A stretch of DNA of 64,000 nucleotides from assembly GCA_937995755.1 (NCBI GenBank), contig CALKJD010000019.1, positions 1 through 64,000 on the forward strand, given 5' to 3'. The translations under genes and the position numbers were made by a program. Positions 5,735 to 63,895 of this stretch are shown in pieces (the stretch's first letter is position 1; the number at the start of each line of letters is the position of its first letter). Source of the DNA: an uncultured Saprospiraceae bacterium. GTDB lineage: Bacteria > Bacteroidota > Bacteroidia > Chitinophagales > Saprospiraceae. The notes beneath the pieces were generated by a model, which ran no database searches, was not told the DNA's origin, and worked only from the letters and a program-made list of their open reading frames with translations.

Positions 5735-6835
5735 CTAAACTAGATTAAGTACCTCGATAATTTTTTCGCATTCTTTCTCCCATGCTAAAGACCCTTTAGC
5801 AGTTATACAAGATCTCTTCATATAGTCATATCTAACTGAGTCTTGCTGAAGGTCAATGATAGTTTTCACAATGAGTTTATCTGACAATTCTGACAACAAC
5901 TCCCCTATTCCATACTTCTCTACCACAACACGATACTCAGGAAAATCCATATGCAGCGCTGGTAATTCAGCTTGTATGTAGTCAAATGTTCTATTAGCCA
6001 ATGAATGATAATAATTGCCAGCAGAATCATCTAATAAATTAATTCCTATCCAAGCATTACTTGCCCAATCATGCATGTCATTTGGATTCATCCAACCCTG
6101 AAAATGTATTCGTTCATGAGCCACAGAATTATCCGCTAACAACCTCAATGCTAATGACCTATCGCCTTCACCTGCTATTCGAAGATCTAAATCTGGCAAT
6201 GATGACATTGCAAATATTACCTCCTCTAAGCCTCTCCCTTCATTTAATACTCCTTGATACCAAATATAGGGTCTTGCATAAATTAACTTCTTAGTACTTC
6301 TCTCCTTGGTCATCGGAAGATTTCTTACCGGAATAAATTCACATCCATAGGTTTCTGCTAATATATGAGCAAGCGATTCGTTTACAGTAAATCTATGATC
6401 GTATCCTTTCATCGTCATTTCACCCACTAGAGACCAGATTCTTCTCTTTATGGGAGATGCAATCAACTCAGGAACTTCAGTAAATAATTCGTGTGCATCA
6501 TGAATCGACAATGACCTTCTTAGCCATGCTGCTATTTTCACAGGCAAAGCTGTATCTAAATCTACACTATACATCAACTTAGGTGAAGAAGAAAAAAGTA
6601 AATAATAGAATAATCTGATCTGATACTCCACATAAAATAAGACGCCACTTTGAAATATCATAGATAACCGATGCTGACCAAATACTTGATTGTAAAGTGG
6701 TTCGCTGTTTTTCTTTCTGCGTCCAACAAGAGTAACATCATATCCTAAATCTTGTAGAGTAATACATATACGATGCATCCTTTGATCCTGATTGAGATCA
6801 TTCGTTACCGCTACATATGCATGAGATATTGACAA
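5735..6835 (-). CDS. Glycosyltransferase, GT4-like
   Basis: N-terminal TNDLNQDQRMHRICITLQDLGYDVTLVGR and GEGDRSLALRLLADNSVAHERIHFQGWM typical of GT-B enzymes. Confidence 0.8.
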   Translation of the reverse strand: MSISHAYVAVTNDLNQDQRMHRICITLQDLGYDVTLVGRRKKNSEPLYNQVFGQHRLSMIFQSGVLFYVEYQIRLFYYLLFSSSPKLMYSVDLDTALPVKIAAWLRRSLSIHDAHELFTEVPELIASPIKRRIWSLVGEMTMKGYDHRFTVNESLAHILAETYGCEFIPVRNLPMTKERSTKKLIYARPYIWYQGVLNEGRGLEEVIFAMSSLPDLDLRIAGEGDRSLALRLLADNSVAHERIHFQGWMNPNDMHDWASNAWIGINLLDDSAGNYYHSLANRTFDYIQAELPALHMDFPEYRVVVEKYGIGELLSELSDKLIVKTIIDLQQDSVRYDYMKRSCITAKGSLAWEKECEKIIEVLNLV

Positions 6836-18798: not shown

Positions 18799-20424
18799 AT
18801 GAATTACTTTCTTGTCATCTTTCTCCTGTTATCAGATATCTATATACTTACAGCGCAAGTAGATTTCACATCTTCTAATCTGCCTATCATTATAATAAAT
18901 ACGAATAATGAATCTCCTATTTTCGATGATCCAAAAGTAGAGGCGAACATTGGAATCATATATAATGGTGAGGGAGAAAGGAATACCATATTTGATCCAC
19001 GCAATGAGTATTTCGGTAAATGCGGAATTGAAATTAGAGGGGAATCATCTCAGTTATTTGATAAAAAATCTTACCTCTTTGAAACTTGGGATGCCGATGG
19101 CAATGATATAGATACAAGCTTTCTCGGATTTCCTGCCGAAGAAGATTTTATTCTCTATGGTCCATATTCGGATAAGACGTTGCTCAATAATGTACTTGCC
19201 ATGCATCTTGCCAATCAGATGGGGCATTACTCCAGTAGGACAAGATTTGTCGAAGTTATAATCAACGATTATTATAAAGGTATTTATGTGTTAATGGAAA
19301 AAATAAAACGTGATAAAGACCGAGTAGATATTGCAAAACTCAATAGCGTTGATATCGAAGGAGATGAATTGACAGGTGGATACATCGTCAGAATAGACAA
19401 AGGAGTATATGATGGATGGACATCGCAGTACGATGCCCATAATTCATTCAATGATGTTAAATTTCAATACTACTACCCTGATCAAGACAATATACAATCC
19501 GAGCAGAAATTATATATCAAATCTTACGTTGATGATTTTGAATCTGCCGTAGCCAGCAATAATGGATTCAATGAGGGTGGTTTTCATTATACGCATTATA
19601 TAAATCTAAGATCATTTGTAGACAACTTTATATTAAACGAATTATCAAAAGATGTAGATGCCTATAGATTAAGCTCATACTTCCATAAAGACAAAGACAG
19701 TAAAGGAGGACGATTCACTGCAGGCCCATTTTGGGATTTCAACCTAGCTTTTGGAAATGCAGATTATTGTCAGACATCTGTTACTTCAGGTTTAATCTAC
19801 AATCAATGTGGAGGCAATAATCCATTTTGGTGGAATAGGTTTCTAAATGACGTCACTTTTCTTCCTGCCATGAAATGCAGATGGGAAGAACTAAGGCAAA
19901 GTATTTTTAGTAAAGAATACATCGATGACTTTCTAGAAGAACACAAAGTATTATTAGAAGAAAGCCAAGAAAGAAATTTTACTCAATTCCCTATCCTAGG
20001 ACAATACATTTGGCCTAATCCAACATTCTTTGAAAATGCTTCTTCGCATTCTATTGCTATAGATATTATGAAAGATTGGCTTAATAGCCGTATTGAATGG
20101 CTAGATAATAATCTTCCTGGTTTTGCTGTGGGTTGTGATAAATTTGATGATCCTAATTATGAAGTTATGATGGACGTATCTCTATCAGATTTGAATCGAG
20201 AATCAATTAAGTTATTTCCAAATCCAACAGCAGATTATGTTCAAATAAGTAGCGACAAGAGTATCGGTGAAGTAATAATTTTTGATATGATTGGAAATCA
20301 ATTAAAGACTTTAAATCATGATACAAAATCAGCTATTATCGATTTACGAAGTCTTTCGAGTGGAACGTATATTTTGAAAACTGGTCCGTCATTAGCAACG
20401 GCAGTAAAATTGATCAAATTGTAA
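18799..20424 (+). CDS. CotH kinase family protein with T9SS sorting domain
   Basis: GIEIRGESSQLFDKKSYLFETWD, YYKGIYVLMEKIKRDKDRVDI, GPFWDFNLAFGNA; C-terminal LFPNPTADYVQIS...GTYILKTGPSLATAVKLIKL. Confidence 0.9.
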   Translation: MNYFLVIFLLLSDIYILTAQVDFTSSNLPIIIINTNNESPIFDDPKVEANIGIIYNGEGERNTIFDPRNEYFGKCGIEIRGESSQLFDKKSYLFETWDADGNDIDTSFLGFPAEEDFILYGPYSDKTLLNNVLAMHLANQMGHYSSRTRFVEVIINDYYKGIYVLMEKIKRDKDRVDIAKLNSVDIEGDELTGGYIVRIDKGVYDGWTSQYDAHNSFNDVKFQYYYPDQDNIQSEQKLYIKSYVDDFESAVASNNGFNEGGFHYTHYINLRSFVDNFILNELSKDVDAYRLSSYFHKDKDSKGGRFTAGPFWDFNLAFGNADYCQTSVTSGLIYNQCGGNNPFWWNRFLNDVTFLPAMKCRWEELRQSIFSKEYIDDFLEEHKVLLEESQERNFTQFPILGQYIWPNPTFFENASSHSIAIDIMKDWLNSRIEWLDNNLPGFAVGCDKFDDPNYEVMMDVSLSDLNRESIKLFPNPTADYVQISSDKSIGEVIIFDMIGNQLKTLNHDTKSAIIDLRSLSSGTYILKTGPSLATAVKLIKL

Positions 20425-20652
20425 TGCTAGATAAAGTGTGACAATGGTCGTGCTACATTTGAAGTTGTATTACTTGTTTTTAAATCACTTCGATATTGAG
20501 TATTGCAAAAAAATATATTGACTATTGGGAAAATTACGAAATCAAATACCTATATTAGTGTTGAAACTAGATCGGATGATTAGATGAAAGTACCCTAAAT
20601 TCCTTTCTAGATTAAAGAATAAACCTATAATCTAAGTACCTATGTCTAAATT

Positions 20653-20688
20653 ACCTACGGCCGTGACCTACGGCCGTGACCTACGGCC
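20653..20688 (+). repeat. 13-bp tandem repeat (ACCTACGGCCGTG, ~2.8 copies) at the start of a lipoprotein gene
   Basis: Direct reading of 20653-20688; the unit contains the 8-bp palindrome ACGGCCGT. Confidence 0.95.
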
Positions 20689-22403
20689 AGAGCTTTGTTA
20701 TTCTTTTTATTAGTATGTTATTTTTTAGTTCTTGTCAGAAGGAAGAACTAACAACAATGTCCTCTCAATCAGAAAACCTTTTAGAAACGGTAACAAGAAA
20801 TGGCAATTCGTGTGACGCATGTCCTAACCTGATTATTAATGGTGACTTTTCAGATGTTTGTTCCCCTGCTGGAACAACACCATTTATTGACCCTGGATGT
20901 GTTGGAGGTAACTGGGTGAATGCTCATGGCTCAATGAATGTTAAAAATGGGGCGATGGAAGGAGTTGTAGGTTATTCCGTTATTGATGAAATTTTAGAAT
21001 TTTTTAATCCAGAAGCAGCATATTCCTTAATGAACTTCAACTCTGACATTGAATATTGTCTTTGTTTCAGTTCAATGTATAGTGGCCAACATAATACTTC
21101 TGACATTAACGATTGGAAAATATGTGTTTATGCAACTGATAACTTAACCTCTGGTGGCCCTGGGGTCGAAAATATGCCGTCTCCATATACTGACCCCAAC
21201 TTCGATACCAATTTTGAAGAGATCTACTGTTATGACCTTACGAATGATGATATAGGAAATTGGGTTGAACATTCTATTCCTAATTTTTCAGTATCTGAAT
21301 CTTACACTCAATTTTGGCCAATTATGCTACCGAAAGAAAGTCTAGATCTTACTACGGAAACAAGCAACTATAATAATCATTATTACTTTGATGATATAAA
21401 CTTAACTTGCAAATCCGAACAACTCATAGGCATTGGTCACTCTGAACCCTTCCCATGTAATTTTTCATTTTTTGCAGAAGAAATCCCAAATATAAATGTC
21501 GAAAAAACAACTTACACTTGGGATTTTGGCGACGGAAACACTGGAACAGGTCGAAACCCAACACACTTCTATGATCAAGGTGGCAACTACACAGTAAAAT
21601 TATATATCATAGATGAAAACGGTTGCTGCCAACAAAAAACAATAGAGGTAAAATGTGATCCAATGCTAATGGATTATTGTAAATATATATGTCATGAAGA
21701 TTATCTAACTGTATTGGTTAATGATGATCCAACGACTCAAGGAATAATTGAAACTGATCCTTTCACTTGTGCAGTGGGTGTTTTGTTTAACGATCATAAC
21801 CCTAATACAGCACCAGTGCGAGAATTATATTTTACTCAGGCATACAGTCACACCGATTTTGCAGGGATTGCAAATGAAATAGAAACTGAATTAAATAATA
21901 TAGGATTCAACATGATAGTTGACAATTATGATCCGACAGGAAATGTTACATGCTACAAATCTATTTGCTTAGGTTGCGATGGAACTGCTATACCACCACA
22001 GTTTGAAACTGAAATGGGAGTACCAACTGGAGTTGTAAGTGGAACGTGGACAGGTACTACAACCCTTATGACTGGTAATGGAATTCCTTTGGGTACAATC
22101 TTTACTAATGCAGCAAATGTAGATATAATAGGAACTAGTGTACCTGTGACATATACTATTACCATATCAAATAATATAGATCCTAATACTGTCGTAGTGA
22201 CACAAAACCCTAATGGTCCTGGCTTCATTCTTCAATACGAAGAAACTGAAGGTTTATTTGCTATGGGAGATGTAGAAATACTAACCGTTCTGGGCACTAG
22301 CGATTTTAATGATGTTTACGATAATTTCGGAAACTGGGTAACTCAGGAATGCGGTACTTTTCAATCTGGTCAGCCAACTAAGCCATTCAACTTCTGTCCG
22401 TAA
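20676..22403 (+). CDS. PKD-domain-containing putative lipoprotein; start codon uncertain (GTG inside the tandem repeat)
   Basis: FVILFISMLFFSSCQKEE is a lipoprotein-like signal; PKD motif YTWDFGDGNTGTGRNPTHFYDQGGNYTVKL. The in-frame TGA upstream at 20664 is created by the repeat. Confidence 0.75.
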   Translation: MTYGQSFVILFISMLFFSSCQKEELTTMSSQSENLLETVTRNGNSCDACPNLIINGDFSDVCSPAGTTPFIDPGCVGGNWVNAHGSMNVKNGAMEGVVGYSVIDEILEFFNPEAAYSLMNFNSDIEYCLCFSSMYSGQHNTSDINDWKICVYATDNLTSGGPGVENMPSPYTDPNFDTNFEEIYCYDLTNDDIGNWVEHSIPNFSVSESYTQFWPIMLPKESLDLTTETSNYNNHYYFDDINLTCKSEQLIGIGHSEPFPCNFSFFAEEIPNINVEKTTYTWDFGDGNTGTGRNPTHFYDQGGNYTVKLYIIDENGCCQQKTIEVKCDPMLMDYCKYICHEDYLTVLVNDDPTTQGIIETDPFTCAVGVLFNDHNPNTAPVRELYFTQAYSHTDFAGIANEIETELNNIGFNMIVDNYDPTGNVTCYKSICLGCDGTAIPPQFETEMGVPTGVVSGTWTGTTTLMTGNGIPLGTIFTNAANVDIIGTSVPVTYTITISNNIDPNTVVVTQNPNGPGFILQYEETEGLFAMGDVEILTVLGTSDFNDVYDNFGNWVTQECGTFQSGQPTKPFNFCP

Positions 22404-22413
22404 ATCAAAGAAT

Positions 22414-23955
22414 ATGAAAATAAATATTATAATACCGATCTACATATTCGTAATTTTTTCAACCTTAAGTGGTCAGGCCCAAGTCTGTATAGGGAATATT
22501 ACATTAGAAACGCAATCTGATGTAGATAATTTCAATATCGATTACCCTTCTTGTACCGAGCTAGAAGGCAATTTATTGATAACAGGCAGTGATATAACCG
22601 ATATTAGCCCTCTAGCACAATTAGATAAAGTGATAGGTAATTTTGAGATCATAAATTGTCAAAATTTACTTTCCATAAATGATACTCAACTAAATGTAAT
22701 TGGTAATGTACGTATCATAGAAAATGAATCTCTAAATGAGATAAATGGATTCAATTCGACGGATTCACTCAAAACATTGAACATTTTTAAGAACACTGCA
22801 TTAAGTATTGTTGCTGGGTTTGATGGCTTAAGAGTAGTCTCGGATAGTTTATACATCGATAGTAACAACGGCTTACAAAGTATTCCTTATTTTAATAATG
22901 TTGATTTTATTGGACGACTTGAAATAGATCAAAATTCTATTCTTGATTCGGTGATTGGATTTAATAATTTGGATTCTATAAATCTTCTATCTATATATAA
23001 TATTCCAATTATTATTGGATTTAATTCTCTTATAATAGGAGGAACAATGTCATTTACGAACCCTCCTATGGGTATTAAACGGATTGAAGGGTTTAATAAT
23101 GTAGAGCGGTTAGCAGGAGGACTTACCTTGGGTGGAATTACACAGGAAGCCCCTATAGAAATATTTAATAAAGTAAAGACCATTGCAGCTAATCTAACTA
23201 TAGGTGTCCAAGGAGGCGAGTTTAATAGTTTATTGCAGTTAGAAGAAGTGCAATCTAATCATATTAATATTTTAGCTTCCAATTTCCAAAATTTAGATTT
23301 TTTATCCAATATGAAGCGTATGGGTGGATTCAAGCCTTTCATTAGGATAGACGACTGCCCTAATCTTACAGATATATCTGGGCTAGATGGAATCGATCCT
23401 GAGACGGTTAATTGGTTTCGAATTAGAAGGAACGAAAACCTCACTGTCTGTCACTCAAATCTAATATGTGCTGTGCTAGAGCGCGGTGACAACGACCCTC
23501 CATCCGTATTGATAGATAATGGCCCTGGCTGCAACAGCACAGAAGAAATACTAGCACAATGTACAGACAAACCTGACGATCCAGAAGTAGATCCTACGCT
23601 CTGCCCTATCGCTTCACGTCCAGGAATGCAGATTGATAGGATTAGCGATGATCGATATGATATTATGTATAATTATGGAATCAAACGCATGTACCTTAGT
23701 GGTATAGCCTATTCCGATCTATTAGCTCTCATCGAATATCATAAAATTGAGAAAGACTTACTTTTTGACTTTTCTACTTTTACGCTTGAGCGGTATTGCA
23801 AACAAGCAGAAGATATTTTGCGTGGAGTAAACTATAGTATGCTAGTCACAGACGATCCTATTCTCCAAGACATTGTAAATCGTGTCATGAGTGAGATTGA
23901 TTTCTTCAGTAATTTTGTATTGACTATTGATGAAGGTGAGTGTGTTAAATTGTAA
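22414..23955 (+). CDS. Secreted receptor-L-domain/LRR-like hypothetical protein
   Basis: Signal peptide; repeating LEGNLLITGSDITDISPLAQL / VIGNFEIINCQNLLSIN / LTDISGLDGI units. Confidence 0.65.
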   Translation: MKINIIIPIYIFVIFSTLSGQAQVCIGNITLETQSDVDNFNIDYPSCTELEGNLLITGSDITDISPLAQLDKVIGNFEIINCQNLLSINDTQLNVIGNVRIIENESLNEINGFNSTDSLKTLNIFKNTALSIVAGFDGLRVVSDSLYIDSNNGLQSIPYFNNVDFIGRLEIDQNSILDSVIGFNNLDSINLLSIYNIPIIIGFNSLIIGGTMSFTNPPMGIKRIEGFNNVERLAGGLTLGGITQEAPIEIFNKVKTIAANLTIGVQGGEFNSLLQLEEVQSNHINILASNFQNLDFLSNMKRMGGFKPFIRIDDCPNLTDISGLDGIDPETVNWFRIRRNENLTVCHSNLICAVLERGDNDPPSVLIDNGPGCNSTEEILAQCTDKPDDPEVDPTLCPIASRPGMQIDRISDDRYDIMYNYGIKRMYLSGIAYSDLLALIEYHKIEKDLLFDFSTFTLERYCKQAEDILRGVNYSMLVTDDPILQDIVNRVMSEIDFFSNFVLTIDEGECVKL

Positions 23956-23990
23956 ACTAGTAATTTTCTAAAAAATAGAATTGATGTAAA

Positions 23991-62756: not shown

Positions 62757-63176
62757 TTATAAGATCACGATCTTTTCAGAATGCACTTCACCTGCATCAT
62801 TTGACAAGATTAAGTAATAGGACCCTGAAGGTACATCACTCATATCCACCTTACTCTTAGACTTGCTAAGCTTTACCGTCTTTACGGTTTCATTGCTATC
62901 TTCATCTAACAATTCCGCTTGAGTATACTTCACAGTACCCTCCGCAATGTCAAATGATTTAGTTCGCCAATTGAAATGTGAGACCTGCTCAGGTATATCG
63001 TAATATACCTCAGTACTAGCCTCGCTGGATTCTATAATCTCTTCATCTATAGATGAGAAATCAGTTAGGAAATCTGATTGAACTGTACTACTAATATCAG
63101 CGGTTAGATTTTGAGCTGAAGCGATGTTTACAAATAAAAACATCACCGTAATACATCTAAATAGTTTTGCACACAT
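62757..63176 (-). CDS. Small secreted protein, signal peptide plus T9SS CTD-like module (paralogue 1)
   Basis: LFVNIASAQNLTADIS signal/mature junction; C-terminal VDMSDVPSGSYYLILSNDAGEVHSEKIVIL. Confidence 0.75.
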   Translation of the reverse strand: MCAKLFRCITVMFLFVNIASAQNLTADISSTVQSDFLTDFSSIDEEIIESSEASTEVYYDIPEQVSHFNWRTKSFDIAEGTVKYTQAELLDEDSNETVKTVKLSKSKSKVDMSDVPSGSYYLILSNDAGEVHSEKIVIL

Positions 63177-63478
63177 ATTTAAGTATTAAGTTGTAAAAAG
63201 TATATTCATTAATATGATTGCAATCTATATTAAATAATCATTACGCACAAGTCTCTATCTTTAGTAAAACAACAATCCGCAATACATAAACAAAATTGCA
63301 ATCTTTTCTACCATATATAATTTTATAAAACGGATCGACTAATAGGTTTCAACAAAGAATACACCTTGTATATTAACAGATACAGAACAAGCTATTTAAT
63401 GTATTCAAGAATGTATAGTATTGTACATATTCCACATTTATCTTTTGATAGCATGTACTTTGCTGAGTTTAGACGTTC

Positions 63479-63895
63479 TTATAACACAACGATCTTTTCA
63501 GAATGGACTTCACCTGATTCTTTCGTCAAAATCAAATAATACGTTCCAGTAGAAACATCACTCATGTCAACTCTATCTACTCCTTTCAAACTAAAGCTCT
63601 TCACTGTCTCGTTACTAACCACTTCTAGTAATTCAACATAAGAGTAGTTCGATAACTCTTTTGAAATTTTGAATGTTTTTGACTGGCTGTCATACTCCGC
63701 AGTTTGTACTGGGATATCGTAATACACACCATTATCCGCCTCATCAAAATCGGAAAACCCAATATATACAGTTGGGAAATCGGTCACATAATTTAAATCA
63801 TTACCATTACTAGTATTAGCTACTAGATTTTGAGCGTTCACAGCACTCGAAAATAAGAACAATCCAATAATACTTGTCAATAACCTTACACACAT
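63479..63895 (-). CDS. Small secreted protein, signal peptide plus T9SS CTD-like module (paralogue 2)
   Basis: FLFSSAVNAQNLVANTS; C-terminal VDMSDVSTGTYYLILTKESGEVHSEKIVVL, clearly paralogous to the neighbour. Confidence 0.75.
   Translation of the reverse strand: MCVRLLTSIIGLFLFSSAVNAQNLVANTSNGNDLNYVTDFPTVYIGFSDFDEADNGVYYDIPVQTAEYDSQSKTFKISKELSNYSYVELLEVVSNETVKSFSLKGVDRVDMSDVSTGTYYLILTKESGEVHSEKIVVL

Follow-up and report, generated by a model that had tools for sequence, protein, structure and literature searches.

A frame-setting 13-bp tandem array at the start of a predicted PKD lipoprotein gene in an uncultured Saprospiraceae bacterium: recent slippage or a switch?

The stretch of DNA analysed here (the window, 64,000 nucleotides) belongs to a draft genome of an uncultured Saprospiraceae bacterium (G000; 4.4 Mb, 163 contigs). 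It carries a predicted PKD lipoprotein gene and an adjoining partner gene, and the features of this locus are collected in Table 1. The PKD domain (PF18911) was recognised in the main frame at 63.2 bits against a cut-off of 27, and the rest of the protein gave no family match. In combining PF18911 with an FSSC lipobox after a hydrophobic stretch, the protein resembles other Bacteroidota PKD lipoproteins. It is unlike them in this family-less remainder and in that just one further species of the genus yielded homologues of its N- and C-terminal parts. Among the 299 relatives searched the C-terminal part was confined to the genus, and a protein-pattern search of genome contigs returned no wider homologues.

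Table 1. Features of the lipoprotein locus, in positions of the window
Feature	Position	Strand	Remark
Conserved leader (ATG, repeat and the bases directly before the ATG)	20623..20688	+	92% identity over 53 bp to sister species G002, contig C158
ATG-started 23-aa ORF (MSKLPTAVTYGRDLRPELCYSFY, then TAG)	20642..20713	+	Reading from this ATG in the 2.8-unit allele, out of frame
Perfect tandem array, ACCTACGGCCGTG x 2.8	20653..20688	+	1.8 units in G002
Main frame, predicted PKD lipoprotein, 575 aa	20676..22403	+	GTG start inside the repeat, first possible start
In-frame ATG, codon 14 of the main frame	20715..20717	+	One base past the TAG of the 23-aa ORF; read from the sequence
Lipobox Cys codon of the main frame	20733-20735	+	FSSC, downstream of the hydrophobic stretch
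Partner gene, secreted-type protein	22414..23955	+	Weak Recep_L domain match; adjoins the lipoprotein gene

The array was the top-scoring row of Tandem Repeats Finder in the 64-kb window (period 13, 2.8 copies, 100% match, score 72), and a chance origin is negligible for a perfect 23-base self-match at one offset in 64 kb. The reading from ATG 20642 was recomputed for each array size. With 0.8 units it gave 27 aa; with 1.8 units, 582 aa beginning MSKLPTAVTYGQSFVILFISMLFFSSCQKEE, with a K in the n-region, a hydrophobic core and the FSSC lipobox, as expected of a lipoprotein; with 2.8 units, as in the window, 23 aa ending at TAG 20711-20713; and with 3.8 units or more, 16 aa ending at TGA. Three in-phase units contain this TGA and longer arrays run into it, so that 1.8 units is the single size able to be ON. 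An earlier note on this DNA had described about 2.8 copies of the repeat, an early stop in the ATG frame, restoration of the lipoprotein by removal of one unit and a TGA brought in by a third full unit, and all of these were reproduced here.

The unit is GC-rich (9 of 13 bases, where the surrounding region has about 35% GC) and self-complementary, and neighbouring units pair to form a stem-loop. The total fold energy of the leader was not exceptional compared with shuffled sequences (z of -1.54 and -0.61), and a terminator created by the repeat was looked for and not found. An Rfam search of the leader returned sub-threshold matches only, and a known RNA leader was therefore rejected.

The two possible starts were compared with a position-weight profile that was built from 558 long open frames and covers the 25 bases leading up to the first ATG in each; it takes most of these ATGs to be true starts. 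ATG 20642 fell at the 60th percentile of these 558 genes and GTG 20676 at the 0.5th. In the predicted fold, 31% of the bases around the GTG were unpaired, versus 61% around the ATG. Moreover, one or more K or R residues occur in 40 of the 42 lipoprotein-like leaders in the genome sample, and the GTG-started leader has neither before its hydrophobic core, in agreement with the earlier description of an annotated ORF that starts in the repeat and lacks a charged n-region. From these features the real start looks like ATG 20642 rather than GTG 20676. Because the ATG context is typical and the GTG context is below that of 99.5% of genes, the 2.8-unit allele, with its ATG out of frame, is probably OFF or weak, as had been proposed. 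GTG starts do occur in bacteria, and some lipoprotein may be made. ATG 20715 is a possible reinitiation site; a start there would give MLFFSSC..., which lies inside the signal core and leaves no usable signal peptide.

The repeat was then sought in relatives. The two-unit motif had no match in 396 of 398 family genomes, and the sole other carrier was G002, which is a separate species in the genus; in GTDB contigs one exact match was found, the same G002 copy (CALBEE010000158.1). The G002 leader has 1.8 units and reads ATG TTA AAA TTA CCT ACG GCC GTG ACC TAC GGC in frame into LSLVIILHFSSCQKDE. The predicted allele with one unit fewer, in which the ATG joins the lipoprotein signal, thus exists in a relative. 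About 30 codons in, the G002 copy shows a frame jump, and the remaining protein, 40% identical to the lipoprotein of the window, continues in another frame up to the contig end. The jump follows closely on the lipoprotein signal, with A and AC runs nearby (L036, G002:C158, ~6700-6740), and is possibly a real mutation or a consensus error. Programmed frameshifting was rejected: the required shift is +1 in the window and -1 in G002, so that no frameshifting mechanism is shared.

The leader is far better conserved than the gene that follows it. The window and G002 share 92% identity across 53 bp that span the ATG and repeat, versus 53% in the downstream coding DNA. By hand count, with Met excluded and one unit set aside, the same codon is used at 12 of 12 shared leader residues versus 68 of 125 downstream (simple binomial ~7e-4, for a stretch picked after being seen). 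The conservation also covers bases that precede the ATG, and the header is seen again ahead of a truncated paralogue on contig C110 of the window genome. This nucleotide-level conservation is the best sign that the leader may be more than passive sequence. It could stem from gene conversion between copies, or from constraint on RNA or DNA.

Other arrays were surveyed in 1.11 Mb of stretches from the window genome at the same stringency of perfect repeat. The only other repeat found was an AAC-type array, which keeps the frame, and no further frameshifting array of this class was present in the 1.11 Mb. Outside this sample, an 8-bp array (AAACTCTC x 8.4; L035, G000:C110, 770-836) was seen between convergent genes, just beyond a Recep_L paralogue. 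The organism carries tandem arrays, yet no set of frameshifting ones was seen in the 1.11-Mb sample. With up to three mismatches allowed, no second two-unit copy was found elsewhere in the window genome, and single units with one mismatch occurred only twice; a scan of IMG/VR for the motif gave no match. A dispersed or mobile repeat was rejected on the lack of two-unit copies elsewhere in the genome, in 396 of the 398 family genomes and in IMG/VR.

Other copies of the gene were compared. On contig C110 of the window genome, the header ATCTANNTACNTATGNNNAAATTACC stands before an ORF of 112 aa that retains MLKLPT but no signal peptide and goes on directly with the C-terminal part; this copy has an internal deletion and lacks the repeat, and a Recep_L paralogue lies next to it. 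On contig C155 of G002, a Recep_L gene 73% identical to that of the window is preceded by only the last ~210 lipoprotein residues. With the frame jump on G002 contig C158, three other copies are thus damaged, each differently, and no clean ATG-started full-length lipoprotein was found among the copies located. A short lipoprotein frame was also observed beside another Recep_L gene (L058, G000:C6, 3211-3451); its nearest ATG (MNSLPLTNN, then a stop) is out of frame with the lipobox frame, and it has no obvious in-frame ATG. The lipoprotein/Recep_L pair lies within 20425-23990 of the window, and in G002 a copy sits at a different place. In the congeners G003 and G001 it is absent at this site, where the CotH gene (18799-20424 in the window) is directly followed by the next gene of the same synteny block. 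The pair is young or easily lost. No shared module ends or terminal repeats were seen around it, and the pair as a mobile element was rejected on that ground. Elsewhere in the window, two adjacent ~139-aa paralogues on the minus strand (62757-63895) form a small tandem gene family with a third just past the window (L038, 4306-4722).

The reading we lean towards, if only modestly, is a recent one-unit slippage duplication in the two-unit, hairpin-forming leader of a fast-turnover lipoprotein gene. The gene would start at ATG 20642 and its working form would have 1.8 units, as in G002. Replication slippage on the GC-rich, hairpin-forming direct repeat would have added one 13-bp unit in the lineage of the window and shifted the frame, and the resulting allele would yield no normal lipoprotein, or a little through the poor GTG in the repeat. 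The frameshift would be a recent and probably tolerated loss of expression in a young gene pair whose other copies are damaged. That the 1.8-unit form is older and the unit was gained in the window's lineage is the parsimonious order of events; low expression of the window allele and a lack of reversibility are likewise inferred. The gain appears recent because the main frame is otherwise intact, when ~0.7 stops would be expected in it per 1% of neutral divergence. The in-frame 1.8-unit allele of G002, the start contexts, the folded GTG region, the damaged copies and the absence of the pair from G003 and G001 all point this way. On the other hand, the frame jump in G002 may stem from an error in the consensus, and a GTG-started lipoprotein may be made. 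In its one-unit gain in one lineage, the different disabling changes of the other copies and the patchy gene pair, the locus is like an ordinary short-tandem-duplication frameshift under weak selection. It differs from one in its leader and unit, whose nucleotide sequence is kept from one species to the other, something not required of a passive accident; the 92% versus 53% identity is not predicted by simple decay and would argue against it.

The earlier note had proposed an on/off contingency locus, in which reversible slipped-strand mispairing turns the gene ON at 1.8 units and OFF at 2.8 units, the assembled genome having caught the OFF state. We regard this as rather unlikely. Like the simple-sequence-repeat contingency loci of H. 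influenzae (PMC2651432) and those reviewed elsewhere (PMC11868660), the locus has a repeat in the 5′ coding region with a unit that is not a multiple of 3. The unit number sets the frame of the start codon and differs between homologous loci in the predicted sense (2.8 versus 1.8 in two species of the genus), and the product is a predicted surface lipoprotein. The units are perfect, the leader is conserved and the stem-loop of the self-complementary unit favours slippage. Unlike those loci, the array has a long unit, only 1.8-2.8 copies, a single ON size and no repertoire of similar loci in the 1.11 Mb, and it is known from one allele per species in two species, so that the variation seen so far is between species. 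Two to three units appears minimal: the H. influenzae survey counted 7-9 nt repeats only at three units or more (PMC2651432). Phase variation is, moreover, defined by high switching rates and reversibility, detectable without selection (PMC11868660). An otherwise intact gene in the ON state was not found, as the sole allele of ON size, on G002 contig C158, carries the frame jump (possibly a consensus error) and runs off its contig; the other copies are damaged by unrelated changes. Hence the frame dependence, the likely ATG start and the sister 1.8-unit allele stand, and reversible switching is disfavoured by the single ON size, the very low copy number, the lack of other such arrays and the three disabled copies. 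In a narrower two-state form, nucleotide-level selection would keep the self-complementary unit at two copies (ON), and a third copy, gained or lost via the hairpin, would silence the lipoprotein, with no other ON state; this form we consider unlikely.

The leader might instead be primarily a nucleic-acid element (an RNA hairpin, a protein-binding site or a recombination site) through which the gene pair's expression or turnover is controlled, with the ATG frame as a by-product and the protein starting at the GTG or at ATG 20715. The codon identity of the leader, its conservation upstream of the ATG and the second header on contig C110 speak for such an element. We nevertheless think it improbable: the fold energy is unexceptional, no Rfam match is above threshold, the C110 header stands without the repeat, and gene conversion between copies could also explain the conservation. 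An assembly error, in which the extra unit is spurious and the true sequence has 1.8 units, would fit a draft genome of 163 contigs and the proneness of tandem repeats to assembler mistakes. It seems highly improbable, given that the 36-bp array would fit inside an ordinary short read and sits well within a 75-kb contig, and that the repeat itself is present in another assembly.

In the literature library searched, no paper was found on phase variation in Saprospiraceae, nor on slippage-driven phase variation of Bacteroidetes lipoproteins. Should unit numbers differ inside a single population, the locus would encode a slippage-controlled surface protein in Saprospiraceae, and a true switch here would mean that a very short, hairpin-forming array is able to act as one. 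If it is not a switch, the locus would exemplify two things: a recent frameshift, in a young gene family, that passes for a switch when one genome is looked at, and a GTG start wrongly chosen by annotation.
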